This document shows, in pieces, positions 2,956-10,726 of a stretch of DNA of 10,726 bases (position 1 is the stretch's first letter; every line of letters begins with the position of its first letter). The notes beneath the pieces are model-generated. The model did not search any database and had not been told where the DNA came from. It was given only the letters and a program-made list of their open reading frames with translations. Made by a program: the position numbers and the translations under genes. Origin of the DNA: an uncultured Haloferula sp. (lineage in GTDB: Bacteria > Verrucomicrobiota > Verrucomicrobiae > Verrucomicrobiales > Akkermansiaceae); NCBI GenBank assembly GCA_946885645.1, contig CAMPGU010000131.1, forward strand, positions 1-10,726, in the 5' to 3' direction.

Positions 2956-3085
2956 GGCGGGTGCGAAACGCACGGGCGGAACTTCGCGCTTTGCGAACGG
3001 TGCGTCCGGCGTGAGGCTTGCGGTGCCGACGAGCTTTTCCGGAAGCGATCCCGGACTTTCGTCTCCTACCGTGCCGAACCCTCGC

Positions 3086-4108
3086 ATGCTCCGTCCGATT
3101 TTCACTCTAGCCGCCTGTTCCCTTCTTCTCCTTCCGGTTCCGCTTCTTGCGCAGGGAAAAGGTTCCGCCGCCGGGCCGGTGGCGGCGGAGGTGTATGTGG
3201 TCAAGGCGACACCGATGGCGATGACCGTCAACACGGTGGGCACCCTGCGGGCGAACGAGGCGGTGGATATCGTGCCGGAGCTGACGAAGCGGCTGGTGCG
3301 GATCCAGGTGGAGGAAGGCGCGCAAGTGGCGAAGGACGAGGTGCTCTTCTTACTCGACGATGCCGACTTGAATGCGGAGATCGTGGAGATCGAAGCGCGC
3401 TTGAAACTCGCGCAGGCGAACGAGGCGCGCACCGGCAACCTGCTCCCCCAGAAGGCGATCAGCCGACAGGAATACGACCTCGCGAAATCGGAGCTCGATG
3501 TTTTCAAAGCCCAGAAAGCGACCAAGGAAGTGGAGCTGGCCAAGACCCGCATCCGCGCGCCCTTTTCCGGAAAAACCGGGGTCCGGCGGGTGAGCGAAGG
3601 CGCCCTCGTGACGCCCAGCACGGTGCTGATGACCCTGCAGGATCTCTCCCGCATCAAGGTCGATTTCCCGCTCCCGGAGCGGTATGCGAGCGAGGTTAAA
3701 ACCGGCCAGAGATTCACCTTCACCGTAGCGGGAAACGCCACGATCTTCGAAGGCCAGGTGCAGGTGATCGAACCTGCGGTGGAAGCGGCCACGCGCAGCC
3801 TGCAGGTGCGCGGCATCTGCGACAGCCCGAAGGGACTCCTGCCGGGCGGATTCGCGGAAGTCAGCTTGCAGCTCGATACGGTGGAAAACGGTTTCGCGAT
3901 TCCCAGCGAGGCGGTGGTTCCCTCTGCTCGCGGCCAAGGTGTTTACGTGGCGAAGGATGGCAAAGCCGAGTTCCGCGATATCGACATCGGGATCCGCACC
4001 GCCGGGCAGGTGCAGGTGCTCCGCGGGTTGAGCGCGGGCGATCAACTCCTCACCACCAATCTCCTCCGCCTGAGGCCGGGCGTGGAGGTCAAGCCCGTCG
4101 AGCCCTGA
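3086..4108 (+). CDS. RND efflux periplasmic adaptor subunit (membrane fusion protein, HlyD/AcrA type)
   Basis: This adaptor links an inner-membrane RND pump to an outer-membrane channel. The 340-residue product starts with a signal peptide (about residues 1-23, core LLLLPVPLLAQ). Residues 47-92 form the first half of the lipoyl/barrel-sandwich domain (VGTLRANEAVDIVPEL, then VEEGAQVAKDEVLFLLDD). A short coiled hairpin follows at about 93-155. The second lipoyl half is at 156-187 (TRIRAPFSGKTGVRRVSEG), then the beta-barrel and membrane-proximal domains (LPGGFAEVSLQL, AIPSEAVV). Length is slightly short for the family because the hairpin is short. The frame is open from a GTG at 3011, but the ATG at 3086 places the signal peptide at the N-terminus and is preferred, although no Shine-Dalgarno precedes it. 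LAAC at 8-11 resembles a lipobox but lies before the hydrophobic core, so lipidation is unlikely. The permease gene follows after 48 bases. Confidence 0.92.
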   Translation: MLRPIFTLAACSLLLLPVPLLAQGKGSAAGPVAAEVYVVKATPMAMTVNTVGTLRANEAVDIVPELTKRLVRIQVEEGAQVAKDEVLFLLDDADLNAEIVEIEARLKLAQANEARTGNLLPQKAISRQEYDLAKSELDVFKAQKATKEVELAKTRIRAPFSGKTGVRRVSEGALVTPSTVLMTLQDLSRIKVDFPLPERYASEVKTGQRFTFTVAGNATIFEGQVQVIEPAVEAATRSLQVRGICDSPKGLLPGGFAEVSLQLDTVENGFAIPSEAVVPSARGQGVYVAKDGKAEFRDIDIGIRTAGQVQVLRGLSAGDQLLTTNLLRLRPGVEVKPVEP

Positions 4109-4156
4109 GTTCCGCGAAAGGCATCCCCTGCATCGCGCGATCCGCCATTTCCTTTC

Positions 4157-7100
4157 GTGAGCCTAGCCGAAACCAGTATCAAGCGCCCCGTCCTCGCGAC
4201 GGTGATGTCGCTCGCCATCCTCCTCTTCGGGATCACCGGGTTCCATTTCCTCGGGGTGAGGGAATATCCCGCAGTCGATCCGCCGATCGTCACGGTGCAG
4301 ACGCAGTATCCGGGTGCGAATCCGGAGGTGATCGCCTCGCAGATCACCGAACCGCTGGAAGCGGTGATCAACGGCATCGCGGGCATCCGCACCATGGCTT
4401 CCGAGTCACGACAGGAGCGCTCCACGATCACGGTCGAGTTCACCCTGGACACCGATCTCGACACGGCGGCGAACGACGTGCGCGACCGCGTTTCGCGGGC
4501 GGTGCGGAACCTGCCGGTGGATTCCAATCCGCCGGTGGTGGAAAAGGCCGACGCGGACTCCCAGCCGATCCTCTTCCTCTCCATGCGCAGCGACAAACGG
4601 AGCATCCTGGAGGTCAGCGATCTGGCCGACCGCCTGATCCGCGAGCGCATGGAAACGATCCCCGGCGTCTCTTCGGTCCGGATTTTCGGGGAGAAGCGCT
4701 ATGCGATGCGGCTGTGGATGGACCCGGTGAAGTTGGCCGTGCATGGCGTAACGCCGATCGATGTCCAGACCGCGTTAGATGAACAGAACGTGGATCTGCC
4801 CAGCGGCCGGCTGGAGGGCAGCACGACCGAGCTTTCCCTGCGGACCTTGGGACGACTCAACACCCCCGAAGATTTCGAAAATCTCATCATCAAGGAAGAG
4901 GACGGCCGGCAGATTCATTTCAGGGATATCGGTTACGCCGAGCTGGGGGCCGAAAACCTGCGCACGGGCACGAAGACCGATCTGGTGTACTCCATCGGGG
5001 TGGCCGTCATCCCCCAGCCGAACACGAACGCGATCGCCATCGCGGACGAGTTCTACAAACGGCTGGATCAGGTGAAGAAGGAGGTGCCGCAGGACGTGAC
5101 GATGGAGGTTGGCTATGATTTCACCCGCTTTGTCCGGCGTTCGGTCTCGGAGGTGGAGGAAACGCTGGTGATCGCTTTTTGCCTGGTGGCACTGATCATC
5201 TTCCTGTTCCTGCGGGACTGGCGTTCCACCGTCATTCCGGTGATCGCGATCCCGGTCAGCATCGTCTCCGGGTTCTTCATCATGTACGTGTCGGGATTCT
5301 CGATCAACGTGCTCACGCTGGTCGCCATCGTGCTCGCCATCGGCCTGGTCTGTGACGACGCGATCGTGGTGCTGGAGAATATCTACGCGAAGATCGAGGA
5401 CGGCATGCCGCCGCTGGAGGCGGCGATCAAGGGCTCGAAGGAGATCTATTTCGCCGTAATTTCGACGACCATCGCGCTGGCAGCGGTCTTCCTGCCGATC
5501 ATTTTCCTTTCCGGATTGACGGGGCGCTTGTTCCGGGAGTTCGGCGTCACGCTCGCGGGCTGCGTGCTTGTCTCCGCATTCGTGGCCTTGACGCTTTCGC
5601 CGATGATGTGCCGCTTCCTCCTGAAGAAGCACGACGAGAGGAAGAACTGGTTCTACCGGGTCACGGAGCCGTTCTTCGTCATGCTGGGCAGGGGCTACCG
5701 CGGTTCGCTGGGGGGCTTCCTGAAGGTCCGCTGGCTTGCCTTCGTCATCCTGGCCGCGAATGCCGTCCTCATCGTGTGGCTCGGCAAGTCGGTACCGCGC
5801 GAGCTTGCCCCGCTGGAAGACCGGGAAAATATCCGCGTCAGCGTGACCGCGCCCGAGGGATCCGGCTTCGAGTTCACGGAAAGCTGGATGGACAAGATCG
5901 ACACCTACGTGCGCGATAGCATTCCCGAGACCTTCCGTACCTTTTCCATCTTGGGCGGCGGCGGCGGCCGGAGCGAGGCCAACGCGGCAATCCAGAACAT
6001 CTACCTGATACCGCCGGAGGAACGCGGACGGAGCCAGGTGGAAATCCACAAGCAGATCATGGAGGACATGAACGCCTTCACCGGCGTGCGCGCCTTCGCC
6101 ACCCAGCCGCCGACCATCGGGGATCGCCGCGGGGGCCAGCCCGTCGCCTACGTCCTGCAGGCGCCCAATCTGGAGGCGCTGATCGAGGTGCTGCCCGAAT
6201 TCATCGATGAAGCGAACAAGAGCCCGGTGCTCCGCCAGATCGATGTCGATCTGAAGGTCAACCGTCCCGAGGGGATCATCTCGATCAACCGCAACAAGGC
6301 TGCGGAGCTGGGCGTGCCCGTGGAGCAGATCGCCCGCATCCTGGATTTCGCATACTCCGGCCGCCGCTTCGGCTATTTCCTGAAAGACGGGAAGCAGTAC
6401 CAGGTGATCGGGCAGATGCAGCGTCAGGACCGGAACGACCCGGGCGACTTGAAGAAGCTCTTCGTGCCCACCAAGAACGGCGGGATGGTGTCCTTGGATA
6501 ACCTTGTGACTTTCGACGAATCCGCGAGCCCCGCCGCGATCTTCCGCTTCAACCGCTCCGTGTCCGCCACGATCCAAGGCTCTCCGGCACCGGGGAAGAC
6601 CCTCGGAGACGGGATCGCGGAAATGGACCGCATCGCCGATCAGGTCCTGCCGGAGGGTTTCCGCACCGCGCTGGCAGGGCAGTCGCGAGACTTCGCGGAG
6701 AGTTCTTCGAGCCTGCTGTTCGCTTTCATTCTCGCGCTGCTGATCATCTACCTGGTGCTCGCGGCGCAGTTCGAGAGCTTCATCGACCCGCTGATCATCA
6801 TCCTCACCGTGCCGCTTTCGCTGGCGGGTGCTTTACTCACCCTGCATCTGACCGGGCAGACGCTGAATGTCTTCAGCCAGATCGGGATCATCATGCTGGT
6901 GGGTCTGGTGACGAAGAACGGGATCCTGATCGTGGAATTCGCCAACCAGCGCAAAGAGCAGGGATTGAAGAAACTGGAGGCGGTGCTGGAAGCTTCCGTG
7001 GCGCGTCTGCGGCCGATCCTGATGACCAGCCTCGCGACGATCCTTGGCATCCTGCCGATCGCGCTGTCGCTGGGCGCTTCGGCCGGCTCGCGGCAGTCCT

Positions 7101-7243
7101 TGGGCATTGCGGTGGTGGGCGGTCTGATCTTTTCGGGTCTGCTGACACTTTTCGTAGTGCCGGCGGTGTACGCGGTATTTTCCCGGGAGTTGAAGCACGG
7201 CGTCGGGAAGCCGGAGACGGATGCGGCGATCGCGGAAGCCTGA
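4157..7243 (+). CDS. Efflux RND transporter permease subunit (HAE1 family, AcrB-like)
   Basis: This is a 1028-residue proton-driven inner-membrane pump that exports hydrophobic or amphiphilic compounds, close to the 1,030-1,050 residues usual for the family. It shows the expected duplicated plan. TM1 follows the N-terminal TSIKRPVLATV. A large periplasmic loop spans about 32-335, TM2-6 about 336-485, a second loop about 550-850, and TM8-12 runs to about 1008. The proton relay is intact: Asp400 and Asp401 in GLVCDDAIVVLEN on TM4, and Lys920 in GLVTKNGILIVEFAN on TM10. The N-terminus is well conserved, so the GTG at 4157 is the start despite lacking a clear ribosome site. It forms an operon with the adaptor 48 bases upstream. 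No outer-membrane factor or regulator lies in the window, so a TolC-like channel must be encoded elsewhere. The drug or metabolite exported cannot be inferred. Cys399 replaces the more usual Val beside the aspartates. Confidence 0.96.
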   Translation: MSLAETSIKRPVLATVMSLAILLFGITGFHFLGVREYPAVDPPIVTVQTQYPGANPEVIASQITEPLEAVINGIAGIRTMASESRQERSTITVEFTLDTDLDTAANDVRDRVSRAVRNLPVDSNPPVVEKADADSQPILFLSMRSDKRSILEVSDLADRLIRERMETIPGVSSVRIFGEKRYAMRLWMDPVKLAVHGVTPIDVQTALDEQNVDLPSGRLEGSTTELSLRTLGRLNTPEDFENLIIKEEDGRQIHFRDIGYAELGAENLRTGTKTDLVYSIGVAVIPQPNTNAIAIADEFYKRLDQVKKEVPQDVTMEVGYDFTRFVRRSVSEVEETLVIAFCLVALIIFLFLRDWRSTVIPVIAIPVSIVSGFFIMYVSGFSINVLTLVAIVLAIGLVCDDAIVVLENIYAKIEDGMPPLEAAIKGSKEIYFAVISTTIALAAVFLPIIFLSGLTGRLFREFGVTLAGCVLVSAFVALTLSPMMCRFLLKKHDERKNWFYRVTEPFFVMLGRGYRGSLGGFLKVRWLAFVILAANAVLIVWLGKSVPRELAPLEDRENIRVSVTAPEGSGFEFTESWMDKIDTYVRDSIPETFRTFSILGGGGGRSEANAAIQNIYLIPPEERGRSQVEIHKQIMEDMNAFTGVRAFATQPPTIGDRRGGQPVAYVLQAPNLEALIEVLPEFIDEANKSPVLRQIDVDLKVNRPEGIISINRNKAAELGVPVEQIARILDFAYSGRRFGYFLKDGKQYQVIGQMQRQDRNDPGDLKKLFVPTKNGGMVSLDNLVTFDESASPAAIFRFNRSVSATIQGSPAPGKTLGDGIAEMDRIADQVLPEGFRTALAGQSRDFAESSSSLLFAFILALLIIYLVLAAQFESFIDPLIIILTVPLSLAGALLTLHLTGQTLNVFSQIGIIMLVGLVTKNGILIVEFANQRKEQGLKKLEAVLEASVARLRPILMTSLATILGILPIALSLGASAGSRQSLGIAVVGGLIFSGLLTLFVVPAVYAVFSRELKHGVGKPETDAAIAEA

Positions 7244-7246
7244 GCC

Positions 7247-7260
7247 GCCGTTGTCACGGC
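7247..7260. terminator. Small hairpin between convergent stop codons, possible bidirectional terminator
   Basis: GCCGT (7247-7251) pairs with ACGGC (7256-7260) around a four-base loop. It sits between the permease stop (7241-7243) and the opposing stop of the DUF4010 gene (7256-7254). With only 10 bases between the two genes, any terminator must be this compact or lie inside the opposing gene. There is no U-tract on either side and the stem has only five pairs, so the call is weak. Confidence 0.2.
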
Positions 7261-8138
7261 CACAGCATCAGGATCGTGGCGCCGCCCAGCAAGATCGCCC
7301 CGAAGCCCGCGAGGGTCGCCTTCACGTACAAGCCTTTGCCAAGGACCGCTGCCAGTCCCGCCTTGAAAACGGAGTTGGCAAGACCGCCAAGCAGGATGAC
7401 GCGCCAGCCCGTTTTCGGATCGACATCTCCCGATGAGACGAGGCCGGCCGTCGAGAGAGTGATGGCGTCCATATCGGTGAGACCGGAGATGGCGGCCACG
7501 GCATAGAGGCCGGAGTTTCCGAAGTGCTGCTTGGCAAGCGCCACCCCGTAAAGAACCGCCACGTAGAGAAGCCCGAACATCACGGCACTCTTCAATTCGG
7601 AGGGAGCTTCCTCCTCTCCCGGCGAATGCCCGGAGCGCGCAGCCATCAGTTGCACTCCGGTGGCGACGATGCCGCTCCAGATCATCATCGCGGCCAGCGG
7701 CGGCAGCAGGCTTCCCATGTGTCCGCGCGCGGTCAATACCACTTCCGCGATCACCCGGACGAATCCTACCGCGGAGGCAAGCAGCGCCATCGCGGCGAAG
7801 GACATGCCCGCCGCGCCCTCCGCGCGGCTGCGGCGGGATACGCTGGCCGTCGTGGCCGTGCTGGACACCAGGCCGCCGAGAATTCCCGCAATCAGGGAGC
7901 TCTTCGCCCCGCCAATGAACTTCCCCGCCAGGTAGGCCACCAGGCTGATCCCCACGATCAGCACCACCATCAACCACACCTTGAAAGGATTCAGCACCCC
8001 CAGGTAGCCCATCTCCCGGTTGGGCAGCAGCGGCAGGATCACCAGCCCGGCCAGCACGAGCCGCGCGATCTCCTTCAGGTCCTTTTCCCCCACCTTCCGG
8101 ACCATGCCGTGCAGCGGCACATCATCATGGAGGAGCAC
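7254..8138 (-). CDS. DUF4010-type C-terminal portion of an MgtC/SapB-family membrane protein, separated from its N-terminus by an amber codon
   Basis: This frame continues directly, without any shift, from the upstream fragment after the TAG at 8141-8139. It encodes about 294 residues with roughly nine membrane segments. Typical DUF4010 features are LPLLPNR after the first helix, LNPFKVWLMVVLIVGIS, GGLVSSTATTASVSRRSR near 88-105, GLTDMDAITLSTAGLV in the C-terminal third, and LGGLANSVFKAGLAAVLG. The family is full-length at about 410-430 residues, matching the two fragments added together. Independent translation could begin at the GTG immediately after the TAG (8138-8136) or at ATG 8105-8103, but neither has a ribosome site. 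This is therefore most simply the distal part of one gene, whether inactivated, misread in sequencing, or read through. Molecular function is unknown: the fused MgtC-like domain family is poorly characterised and no substrate can be claimed. Confidence 0.8.
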   Translation of the reverse strand: MLLHDDVPLHGMVRKVGEKDLKEIARLVLAGLVILPLLPNREMGYLGVLNPFKVWLMVVLIVGISLVAYLAGKFIGGAKSSLIAGILGGLVSSTATTASVSRRSRAEGAAGMSFAAMALLASAVGFVRVIAEVVLTARGHMGSLLPPLAAMMIWSGIVATGVQLMAARSGHSPGEEEAPSELKSAVMFGLLYVAVLYGVALAKQHFGNSGLYAVAAISGLTDMDAITLSTAGLVSSGDVDPKTGWRVILLGGLANSVFKAGLAAVLGKGLYVKATLAGFGAILLGGATILMLWP

Positions 8139-8141
8139 CTA
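8139..8141 (-). other. In-frame amber (TAG) codon splitting the MgtC/DUF4010 gene
   Basis: The minus strand reads GTG TAG GTG CTC CTC here. The residues on both sides belong to one conserved protein family in the same frame, so a single base change explains the break. A leucine (TTG) codon at this place would fit the helix ending EAGTV-x-VLLHDD. Other one-step sense codons (CAG, TGG, AAG, GAG, TCG, TAC, TAT) are also possible. Confidence 0.85.
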
Positions 8142-8516
8142 CACCGTGCCAGCTTCGATCACGGCGACGGCCAGCTGCTGTACTCCCGCGAGGGCACCGA
8201 TGACGAACATCACCAGCATCGCGATTTCCGTGGTCAAGCCCACGTCCGGTTCCGACTTCTGCATGGCCGCCACGTTTCCGACCACCACCACGGCAGTGCA
8301 GCAGGCGAGCCCGGCGGCGATCATCCAACCGCCGAAGGCCCCCGCGAGGAGGCCGGCGATGCCCCCGAAAAGACCTGTCAGCCCGAAGGTCCGGATGCCC
8401 GCCACCTCGTCCCGCACCCATTCCCGTTGCAGGCCTACCAGAAGACCCAGCCCCAAGGCCGTGCCGAGTGCCTGGAGTACCCGCATCGTTTCGGGAAATT
8501 CGGGGATCTCGCTCAT
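8139..8516 (-). CDS. MgtC-like N-terminal portion of the same membrane protein, ending at a premature TAG
   Basis: The 125-residue product holds the MgtC/SapB-like N-terminal domain with about four membrane helices. Recognisable motifs are GLGLLVGLQREW (22-33), AGIRTFGLTGLFGG (39-52) and GLTTEIAMLVMFVIGALAG (93-111). In intact homologues this domain is followed at once by a charged linker and the DUF4010 region, which is what lies in the same frame beyond the TAG at 8141-8139. The start ATG at 8516-8514 is preceded by AGGAG only two bases away, closer than ideal. ATG at 8486-8484 is an alternative that trims ten non-hydrophobic residues. A plausible promoter lies just upstream. On its own the fragment might insert in the membrane, since stand-alone MgtC domains exist, but the 125-residue length ends within the last helix or its edge, which argues for disruption instead. 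Confidence 0.8.
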   Translation of the reverse strand: MSEIPEFPETMRVLQALGTALGLGLLVGLQREWVRDEVAGIRTFGLTGLFGGIAGLLAGAFGGWMIAAGLACCTAVVVVGNVAAMQKSEPDVGLTTEIAMLVMFVIGALAGVQQLAVAVIEAGTV

Positions 8517-8599: not shown

Positions 8600-10726
8600 T
8601 CAGCATCGCGTCTTGGACCGGATCAGCTCCCGGAATAGCGCCGCTTCGCCGGTTTCCGCCCGCCCCAGCGCCGGGTCCTTGTCGAGATCGACGAAAAGGA
8701 GGCCGAAATCGGTGTTCGGATCGAAGGCATGGCCCCACTCGCGGTTCGAGGTGATCGACCAGTAGTTGTACGCTTTCACCGGCACGCCCTTTGTCAAAGC
8801 CCGCTCCACTTGATCGAGGTGCGCCCTGATGTAGTCGCCGCGCGTCATGCCGTCGGCGGAGGGTACGCAGCCGTTTTCCACCACCAGCAGCTCTTGGCCG
8901 GGGAACCAGCGGTGGAAGCGTTGGAGGGCGTGGAAAAGCCCCTGGGGCCAGACCGGTGCCCGCAGGAAGCGCCCGTGAGCGGCCTCCTCCAGCAGGCGGA
9001 ACCGGTGTAGCCGCCAGGTGGGCAGGCCCCAGTAGTAGTCGAGCCCGACGAAATCCTGCGCGCCCACCGCTTCCGGCGGGCAGAGCTCTTCGGGCAATCT
9101 TCCGGAGGTGCCGAGATACCACCAGTTCGCATTGGCAATCAGGCTGGTGGTGCCCCAGAAGCGCCACGCCCAATTCAACCAGCCGGATTTCGACTCCAGC
9201 ACCTCCAGGCGTTCGCAGGGATCGAGCGGTTCGATGTCGAGCTTGTTGGCATCGCCCAGAACCTCGAGCGCGATCAGCCTGGCGAGCTTCACCTCCAGGC
9301 CCTCGGCCTCGCACGCGGCGGAGACCCCCGGGGCGTCCTTGCGGATGCCGATGCGGATGCGCCCGCGGCGTTTGATGCGCCGGATGCTGCGGCCGGTGGA
9401 CATGCTGTCCGGAAGGCTGTCGCCGCCCGCGAAGACCTCGTGCAGGGAGAGCGGCCGGCGGATGTCCTTCGCGATTTCCTCCGGTCGGGAAATCCAGGGC
9501 TCTTCGCAGGCGAGGGCGAGTTCGTGCTGGAAGGCTGCTACCGCGCGGTTCACGCGTTTCAAGAGCCGCGCGTGGCCGTGCGGCGCCACCACCACATACT
9601 GCTCCTCGCTCAGGCCGGTGGCGAGGAAACGGAAGTGCCCGCGGTCCTTCAGCTCGAAGGGGAGCAGGAAAAAGGCGTCGCCATAGACCGCCTGGATCTT
9701 GCCCATGGCGAGGGCACTGCGGGCATCATCGTAACTCGCGAAGATTTTCTTCCGTGCTTGCGGGGGAAGATCGCGTTTCCAGTTTTCCGGCTGGTTGCCG
9801 ATGCCGATCACGCCGACTTCCTTGCCAGCGAGCGAGGCGATTTCCCGGCCCGCGTAACCCTCCATCACCAGCACGGCCTTCCCGGTCCGCAGGTAGGGAT
9901 CGCTGAATTCGAAGCGCGTCTGATCGCCCCGGGTGATGCCGCCGATCACCAGATCCACTTCGCCGCGTTCACTGACCAGCGCGCCCTTGGTGGTGAATTT
10001 GAAAACCGCTTCCGAGAGGCCGCGATGGCAGGCGCCCCAGTCCATCAGCATCTGCAGCCAGGTCGGGAAACCGGTCACCAGCGGATTCACGCCGACCTTG
10101 GCCGATTCATCGCGCTCCTTAATGCGGGAACGGGCGCGGGCGTGCGCGCGGAAAAGATTCGGGATCAGTTTTCCCACCGCCTCGGCCTCCGCCTCCACTT
10201 CCGTGCCCCGCGGCAGGCCGGGAGGCATGTAGTAGCGGTTCTGCCACCATGGCTTGATGTAGCCGAAGGTGAGCTGGCTCGGCTCGTTGAAGGTGATCCA
10301 CCAGTCCACCAGGTCGCCCAGGGCGGTGGCCACCTCGGCCGCGTAACGGGCGAAGAGATCCGGGAAAGCCTCGCCGATCATCCCGCCGTGGTGCCGTTCC
10401 AGCCACACCGGCCACACGAAGTGATGGAGCGTGACCATCACCTTCATCCCGTGGGCGCGCACGCATTCCGCCACCCGCCGGTAGTGGGCCAGCGCCTCCC
10501 CGTCGAAGACGCCCTCCGCCGTCTCGACCCGCGCCCACGCGATGGAAAAGCGGAAGAGCTTGCAGCCCATCCCGGCCGCGGCGGCGATGTCTTCCTCGTA
10601 GCGGTTCCAGAAATCCGTCCCGCGCCCCCGCGGCGTCAGCCCCTGGCAGCGCTCCCAGAGATCCCACACGTCTTCCCGCTCCGGATCATGGGCCTCCACC
10701 TGGTGGTCGGCATTTGCCGTGCCGAA
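8600..10726 (-). CDS. Family 1 glycoside hydrolase with an inserted, apparently circularly permuted, type 3 solute-binding domain; N-terminus cut by window edge
   Basis: About 708 residues are visible; ordinary GH1 enzymes have about 450. Numbering starts at the Val codon 10699-10697. The residues just upstream (FGTANADHQ) are the standard GH1 opening, so the true start lies beyond the edge. GH1 first half, to about 205: His93 in TLHHFVWP, acid/base Glu139 in TFNEP, then a beta-strand AKVGVNP. GH1 second half, about 508-699: DFVGLDYYWG, nucleophile Glu608 in VVENG, and WSITSNREW (Glu654, Trp655). All key subsite -1 residues appear present, so hydrolase activity is likely. Between them, 240-395 resembles the distal part of a type 3 solute-binding protein (GEVDLVIGG, FEFSDPYL, LAGKEVGVIG, GKIQAVYGD), and 436-506 resembles its proximal part (RIKRRGRIRIGIRKDAPG, GLEVKLARLIALEVLG, ERLEVLES). 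The two parts are in swapped order. Sugar substrate, ligand and cellular location are unknown. TGA stop at 8602-8600. Confidence 0.88.
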   Translation of the reverse strand, partial: FGTANADHQVEAHDPEREDVWDLWERCQGLTPRGRGTDFWNRYEEDIAAAAGMGCKLFRFSIAWARVETAEGVFDGEALAHYRRVAECVRAHGMKVMVTLHHFVWPVWLERHHGGMIGEAFPDLFARYAAEVATALGDLVDWWITFNEPSQLTFGYIKPWWQNRYYMPPGLPRGTEVEAEAEAVGKLIPNLFRAHARARSRIKERDESAKVGVNPLVTGFPTWLQMLMDWGACHRGLSEAVFKFTTKGALVSERGEVDLVIGGITRGDQTRFEFSDPYLRTGKAVLVMEGYAGREIASLAGKEVGVIGIGNQPENWKRDLPPQARKKIFASYDDARSALAMGKIQAVYGDAFFLLPFELKDRGHFRFLATGLSEEQYVVVAPHGHARLLKRVNRAVAAFQHELALACEEPWISRPEEIAKDIRRPLSLHEVFAGGDSLPDSMSTGRSIRRIKRRGRIRIGIRKDAPGVSAACEAEGLEVKLARLIALEVLGDANKLDIEPLDPCERLEVLESKSGWLNWAWRFWGTTSLIANANWWYLGTSGRLPEELCPPEAVGAQDFVGLDYYWGLPTWRLHRFRLLEEAAHGRFLRAPVWPQGLFHALQRFHRWFPGQELLVVENGCVPSADGMTRGDYIRAHLDQVERALTKGVPVKAYNYWSITSNREWGHAFDPNTDFGLLFVDLDKDPALGRAETGEAALFRELIRSKTRC
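9182..9982 (-). other. Inserted solute-binding-protein (type 3) domain inside the GH1 gene, segments in permuted order
   Basis: This interval encodes residues 240-506 of the glycosidase. Reading in gene order: 9982-9515 encodes the strand GEVDLVIGG, the SDPY motif, the second lobe (LAGKEVGVIG to GKIQAVYGD) and a closing helix (LLKRVNRAVAAF). Positions 9514-9395 encode a linker of about 40 residues. Positions 9394-9182 encode a segment that looks like the mature start of a binding protein (RSIRRIKRRGRIRIGIRKD), its first helix (GLEVKLARLIALEVLG) and the motif ERLEVLES. In ordinary proteins ERLEVLES runs directly into GEVDLVIGG. Here these two ends abut the GH1 halves instead, so the break lies in a loop of the first lobe and the natural termini are joined by the linker. 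The assignment is by motif recognition, without a profile search. Confidence 0.75.

Follow-up and report, generated by a model that had tools for sequence, protein, structure and literature searches.

A GH1 glycosidase of Verrucomicrobiota very likely interrupted by a circularly permuted solute-binding domain, and its possible tuning by a small anionic ligand

The window analyzed here, a stretch of 10,726 nucleotides from an uncultured Haloferula sp. (contig CAMPGU010000131.1 of assembly GCA_946885645.1), carries on its minus strand a gene that, judging from sequence profiles, alignments and predicted structures, very likely encodes a glycoside hydrolase family 1 (GH1) glycosidase interrupted at about residues 246 to 512 by a family 3 solute-binding protein (SBP) domain, or SBP3, whose C-terminal piece stands ahead of its N-terminal piece. 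The 5' end of the gene lies beyond the window, and about 8 first residues are therefore missing; the full-length relative P0001 has 716 amino acids and 99% identity to the window protein, and relatives are about 715 amino acids long, most of them starting like MxFPxxFLFGTANADH. The gene and its parts, numbered from the first residue in the window, are as follows.

8600..10726, minus strand: whole gene, a single open frame of 708 amino acids plus stop
9992..10726, minus strand: GH1 part 1, residues 1-245 (barrel strands 1-5 and the first helices past strand 5); PF00232 stretch 1-215, with 222-245 by alignment to insert-less GH1 relatives
9509..9991, minus strand: SBP3 C-terminal piece, residues 246-406 (end of lobe 1, whole of lobe 2 and return into lobe 1); NCBIfam 250-405, with Foldseek and VIA matches to SBPs
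9605..9877, minus strand: lobe 2, residues 284-374, a segment absent from 15 of 198 aligned family rows
9392..9508, minus strand: linker joining the natural SBP C terminus to the natural N terminus, residues 407-445; low conservation, predicted local distance difference test (pLDDT) about 45
9191..9391, minus strand: SBP3 N-terminal piece, residues 446-512, from phmmer
8603..9190, minus strand: GH1 part 2, residues 513-708 (remainder of helix 5 and strands 6-8)

The NCBIfam profile PRK11260 aligned residues 250 to 405 with its positions 96 to 252 of 266, and the best stretch of PRK11917 (aspartate/glutamate binding) aligned residues 443 to 498 with positions 26 to 85 of 259. Because these stretches run in reversed profile order, the N-terminal SBP part is placed last. 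The insert alone (280 amino acids) matched 38 distinct PDB sequences at E ≤ 1, in most cases through its first 165 residues, which aligned with the latter portion of the SBP (for 4zv1, insert residues 18 to 164 with chain residues 66 to 217). The best stretches of 2yjp (insert 198 to 276 with chain 32 to 114), 2v25 (insert 208 to 264 with chain 26 to 86) and 1xt8 fell instead at the end of the insert and matched the N-terminal parts of these proteins, as did a phmmer search with residues 452 to 512 alone (2v25, E = 0.002; 1xt8, E = 0.005). When the domain was restored to its natural order, it gave one continuous TIGR01096 match (residues 4 to 214, profile positions 24 to 235) and passed the PF00497 cutoff with 27.6 bits against the 26.4 required, whereas the native piece order scored slightly lower (26.2 bits for PF00497 and 47.1 against 47.8 for TIGR01096). 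The gain is small because most of the signal sits in the C-terminal piece. Two native relatives that were scanned, P0041 and P0060, both with precomputed PF00497 annotation, pass the cutoff with 30.6 and 30.9 bits. A short N-terminal fragment searched against the PDB gave 10 uninformative matches to SAKe proteins.

These results bear out what a sequence-only reading of the stretch had proposed, namely a permuted SBP3 inside a GH1 enzyme with the C-terminal piece first, and the two-lobed SBP3 fold that it expected was found. Its profile expectation held in part: on the native protein, Pfam returned GH1 alone (PF00232, in two stretches, plus a GH5 echo under the cutoff) and no PF00497 match at E ≤ 1, and the split, reversed SBP3 stretches came from NCBIfam instead. 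The limits of the insert also had to be moved. The earlier limits were residues 206 to 508 (the annotated 9182-9982 corresponds to residues 249 to 515), while alignment with five insert-less GH1 relatives of the phylum sample (L050, L052, L056, L059 and L061, with 35 to 38% identity over residues 1 to 223) puts the insert at about 246 to 512 (9191-9991), between two helices in the segment joining barrel strands 5 and 6. The linker that was said to tie the natural SBP ends together is variable and falls inside residues 401 to 455, which, with a mean top-residue frequency of 0.57, are the least conserved of the stretches measured. From the alignments and secondary structure, the new SBP termini fall in lobe 1, between its helix 2 and strand 3, and both GH1 joins are therefore in that one lobe, in agreement with the earlier proposal of a single lobe.

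Membership in GH1 (PF00232) is indicated by a profile match over the Pfam cutoff together with the barrel fold, and the two catalytic glutamates are in place.

10283..10285, minus strand: E148, acid/base, NEP motif; 198/198 rows
8876..8878, minus strand: E617, nucleophile, ENG motif; 198/198 rows

Both roles are those of the corresponding glutamates in GH1 enzymes in general. The active-site check covered ten positions in the 198 aligned rows (187 of them distinct at 99.5% GH1 identity, with some genes included twice). E148, E617, H102, N147, D563, Y565, W656, E663 and W664 were invariant, and Q9 was present in 196 rows, the other 2 having a gap. The catalytic residues are thus retained, as claimed earlier, and the residues of the GH1 sugar site (Q, H, N, Y, W, E and another W) are present as Q9, H102, N147, Y565, W656, E663 and W664. 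By sequence, the GH1 part appears to be a catalytically competent β-glycosidase. D563 replaces the usual Asn of the NYY motif, which is Asn in the five insert-less relatives, and the sugar-site loop reads TSNREW (8735-8752, minus strand) where those relatives have IDNFEW. Two further segments of the enzyme were conspicuous. Residues 155 to 176 (10199-10264, minus strand) form an aromatic-rich GH1 segment, PWWQNRYYMPPGLPRG, that is strongly conserved with many invariant positions; the insert-less relatives have a shorter version of it. Its block pLDDT in the full model is 32 to 48, and it may contact lobe 1 or a partner. Where GH1 resumes past the insert, residues 513 to 546 (9089-9190, minus strand) form a largely conserved Trp-rich stretch, WLNWAWRFWGTTSLIANANWWYLG, possibly an interface or a membrane contact. 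Two of the insert-less relatives (L050, 308-1459; L056, 2169-3335) directly adjoin a gene for an MGDG_synth-family glycosyltransferase (PF06925), a hint that this insert-less branch of GH1 may act on glycolipids.

The architecture belongs to a conserved family. At E ≤ 0.001 there are 312 homologous proteins, the best 120 of which cover 98 to 100% of the query, and 36 loci were found in genome records, all with Verrucomicrobiota titles and two of them sharing one assembly. Full-length matches occur in 5 of the 288 genomes sampled from the phylum of genome G001 and in 32 of the 195 sampled from its family (in one of the 32, a TAG interrupts the gene); in the latter sample, 3 more genomes have the gene without lobe 2 and 5 more have a partial match only. 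Both lobes are kept in place in 183 of the 198 rows, which, together with the uniform naming of the 36 loci, speaks against a chimera of separate GH1 and SBP genes created in assembly or sequencing; nothing was found in favor of such a chimera, which the independent records make extremely improbable, and we rejected it. One relative (P0062) is labeled an Armatimonadetes metagenome-assembled genome by one source, perhaps a matter of binning or naming. In a plasmid collection, 880 records matched, none with a single place spanning more than 80% of the query. Some JGI proteins of the family carry the automatic name "beta-glucosidase/.../ABC-type amino acid transport sub...", so both domains had already been seen by machine annotation. 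In 166 relatives, a median of 8 residues stand ahead of window residue 1 (at most 12 in 140 of them and more than 22 in 10), which, judged from start positions and not by a signal-peptide predictor, leaves no room for an export signal in most relatives. The binding domain is for this reason probably cytoplasmic.

The glutamine-binding protein contacts its ligand through Asp10, Ala67, Gly68, Thr70 and Arg75 of the large lobe and Gly119 and Asp157 of the small lobe, according to PMC7400645. We transferred these positions by alignments (8hnj and 4zv1), with residue numbering by hand, which placed G262 at Ala67, G263 at Gly68, T265 at Thr70, N311 or Q312 at Gly119 and D350 at Asp157. The main pocket and hinge residues are the following.

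9677..9679, minus strand: D350, aligned (8hnj) with the ligand-binding Asp157 of glutamine-binding protein; 183/183 full-length rows
9341..9343, minus strand: R462, aligned (2v25) with Lys of Peb1A; 179/183 full-length and 11/15 lobe-2-less rows
9335..9337, minus strand: D464, two residues past R462 in the same strand-loop, taken as pocket-side and absent from the contact list; 183/183 full-length and 7/15 lobe-2-less rows
9878..9880, minus strand: K283, first lobe crossing, hinge by topology, at the very edge of the deletion; 183/183 full-length and 0/15 lobe-2-less rows
9602..9604, minus strand: E375, second lobe crossing, hinge by topology, at the edge of the deletion; 182/183 full-length and 6/15 lobe-2-less rows

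D350 thus supplies the lobe 2 ligand aspartate of SBP3, and a salt bridge between K283 and E375 is our guess. Other pocket positions are kept in 179 (G263), 170 (G262), 162 (N311), 158 (Q312) and 146 (T265) of the 183 full-length rows, and R506 is kept in 164. The further invariant positions D258, Y278, G349, G384 and L481 look like fold residues. By a hand alignment, R462 presumably stands at the Asp10 place of glutamine-binding protein, and we take Arg24 of DEBP to be at the equivalent place. Since R462 matches the Lys of Peb1A and this Arg of DEBP, and R506 is added to it, the ligand would probably be small and anionic. The pocket appears to be conserved, yet unlike that of a textbook amino acid binder. 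Literature searches for the ligand contacts of DEBP gave no contact list, the accessible part of PMC10327124 naming S72 and S27 only. Assignment of a ligand by homology was rejected: R462 and R506 are reminiscent of glutamate/aspartate binders, yet conservation of the usual arginine is lacking, and no ligand is named here.

The nested permuted architecture, the catalytic set, the lack of room for an export signal in most relatives, the conserved pocket and hinge positions and the absence of lobe 2 in some relatives are seen in sequences and models; ligand binding, the class of the ligand, any direction of its effect and the coupling path are inferred. A small anionic, amino-acid-like metabolite would bind the permuted two-lobed (Venus-flytrap) SBP3 between barrel strands 5 and 6. 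Lobe 1 would be held at both ends by GH1, while lobe 2 would be free to close on the ligand, and the movement would be relayed through the helices flanking the insert (222 to 246 and 515 to 531) to the mouth of the active site. The 15 rows of relatives without lobe 2 lack 81 to 87 of the 88 positions 288 to 375, and two of them (L034 and L035) duplicate P0126 and P0121, leaving 13 distinct genes. A quick tree built from the GH1 part of 96 rows requires two changes to account for the absence of lobe 2, one for a clade of 12 rows (Shimodaira-Hasegawa-like approximate likelihood ratio test [SH-aLRT] of 100) and one for L031, which stands alone among full-length rows (SH-aLRT 81-86) and over the GH1 columns is closer to a full-length row (79% identity to the nearest) than to any lobe-2-less row (64% at most). 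The strongly supported branches alone force no more than one lobe 2 change, and forcing the 13 genes together cost 59 log units (approximately unbiased test, P = 0.061), which is not rejected at 0.05; the tree therefore favors two separate losses, with a single origin not formally rejected. Loss of lobe 2 is the simpler reading of the 12-row clade, as against a root branch, and we read control by ligand as something that can be lost.

In lobe 1, we compared 21 positions kept in at least 97% of the full-length rows. In the 15 lobe-2-less rows, D258, S275, L388 and R454 are kept in all 15; Y278, H385, G460 and A482 in 14; L250 and E478 in 12; R462 and G384 in 11; P277 in 10; G263 and G476 in 8; D464 in 7; E375 in 6; L481 in 3; A284 in 1; and T281 and K283 in none. 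D464, G263 and R462 thus decay though they are away from the deletion. Because this pattern supports a working pocket only moderately, we put the chance that the protein is a cytoplasmic GH1 whose activity a small anionic, amino-acid-like ligand tunes through the permuted SBP3 at a little short of even.

Several observations weigh against such control. The loss of T281, K283, A284 and E375 says little and is partly trivial, since all four flank the deletion, and the decay is not confined to the pocket, since the noncontact positions L481, G476, P277 and G384 decay too. The 15 rows keep all of their GH1 residues, so gating is not essential to the enzyme, and the GH1 changes common to both lobe-2-less lineages amount to 1 shared conserved position where 0.42 is expected (P = 0.36). 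The ligand-gated glycosidase of the sequence-only reading is accordingly not established. Neither is it established that the ligand is an amino acid, because the usual carboxylate-binding arginine is unconserved: the place of the α-carboxylate arginine (Arg75/Arg77) is a gap in the 4zv1 alignment or T270 in the 8hnj alignment, and the adjoining R271, which is Arg in 142 of the 183 full-length rows, might stand in for it. The insert is also less conserved than the enzyme (mean top-residue frequency of 0.70 to 0.74 against 0.83 to 0.87 for GH1). Finally, no recurrent neighbor hinting at a ligand, pathway or substrate was found in the 36 loci, in which the widest open reading frame (ORF) cluster besides the gene reached 6 loci; the neighboring ORFs were picked mechanically, longest first, their clusters are unnamed, and in some loci the gene was replaced by an overlapping frame.

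The same observations give room to a purely structural role, in which the insert, lobe 1 chiefly, shapes or stabilizes the surface around the GH1 active site, or an interface within an oligomer, without sensing anything, and lobe 2 is a relic that can be dispensed with. In the lobe-2-less rows, lobe 1 and a number of fold residues are retained and noncontact positions decay as well; the ligand arginine is not conserved, and the two lobe-2-less lineages share no GH1 change above chance. Against this role, few insert positions vary as little in the full-length rows as D350, K283 and E375, whose retention is not expected of a relic lobe 2. We consider the structural role as a whole possible but doubtful. 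It is unlikely that the SBP3 captures the enzyme's own substrate or product by an amine or carboxylate part (the substrate being, for instance, a glycoside that bears an aminoacyl group or a peptide) and delivers it to the active site with no regulator involved. The insert leaves GH1 in the strand 5-6 segment, which, from secondary structure and the usual GH1 fold, begins on the catalytic face of the barrel, and the regulatory domain of the lytic transglycosylase MltF responds to cell wall muropeptides according to PMC10746161, but no recurrent neighboring gene points to such a substrate. Among the sequence matches of the insert are 5t0w and 5tuj, ancestral precursors of cyclohexadienyl dehydratase (CDT), an enzyme that arose from SBP3 proteins; 5t0w is also among the Foldseek matches listed, and CDT itself (5jos) matches weakly (E = 0.013). 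The CDT-type matches are weaker than those to amino acid SBPs, and it is very unlikely that the insert is itself an enzyme of this kind and the protein bifunctional.

The protein differs from GH1 β-glycosidases (PF00232; 4r27 BGL167, 1vff and 8kap/9u98 SGR_2426) in carrying an extra domain, some 267 residues long, that separates strands 5 and 6, in addition to D563. With family 3 SBPs (PF00497; glutamine-binding protein, Peb1A, DEBP/GltI and CjaA), its domain shares the two-lobed fold, the ligand Asp (D350) and the N-terminal strand motif, with R462 where Peb1A has Lys, both basic; it differs in being circularly permuted, nested in an enzyme and apparently cytoplasmic, without a recurrent neighbor and with the canonical carboxylate arginine unconserved. 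Nested sensor-enzyme fusions have been constructed in the laboratory to serve as switches, and GH1 is not known to have a dedicated regulatory domain. In MltF, the domain is not permuted and the catalytic fold is unrelated to GH1; the window protein is not a member of the MltF type, its catalytic domain being GH1 and not a lytic transglycosylase. MltF is likewise a natural glycan-cleaving enzyme, there switched by a ligand-binding regulatory domain, which is N-terminal (PMC10746161), in contrast to the nested one here. Engineered switches of xylanase and xylose-binding protein also join a glycosidase to a periplasmic binding protein by insertion, with ligand altering the activity of the switch (PMC4536891), but they are man-made, of family GH11 and have the enzyme inside the binding protein, the reverse of the present arrangement. 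In iGluSnFR and its kin, whose structures 8ovn and 8ovp rank with the insert's best structural matches, a glutamate-type SBP3 (GltI) is likewise fused to a partner domain; it is an engineered reporter in which the permuted partner is GFP (PMC10327124).

The sequence-only reading knew of no natural family with this architecture, and we found no description of a permuted SBP3 in GH1 among the titles and opening abstract lines listed by searches of the open-license literature. Both domains are already known; the novelty lies in their nesting, in the permutation and in a location that appears to be cytoplasmic. In a history that we rate somewhat below even odds, a Venus-flytrap sensor was permuted, put into a TIM-barrel glycosidase and moved to the cytoplasm, where its pocket was rebuilt for a new anionic ligand, and some lineages later dropped the clamp. 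If this natural domain insertion switch is real, its conserved family with full, clamp-less and insert-less relatives would allow a direct test of how allostery evolves by domain insertion, GH1 would gain a metabolite-controlled member in Verrucomicrobia, and the lineages without the clamp would be natural constitutive controls.

No ABC transporter was found among the seven window ORFs scanned, the upstream side of the gene falling beyond the window. The plus strand carries ordinary genes, namely BenE (736-2136), a dienelactone hydrolase (2182-2955) and a pair of HlyD and an AcrB-type resistance-nodulation-division (RND) pump (3011-7243). On the minus strand, the ORFs of MgtC (8139-8516) and DUF4010 (7254-8138) follow each other in the same frame, separated by a TAG alone, and 7254-8516 holds either a pair of genes or a single one that a premature stop interrupts.
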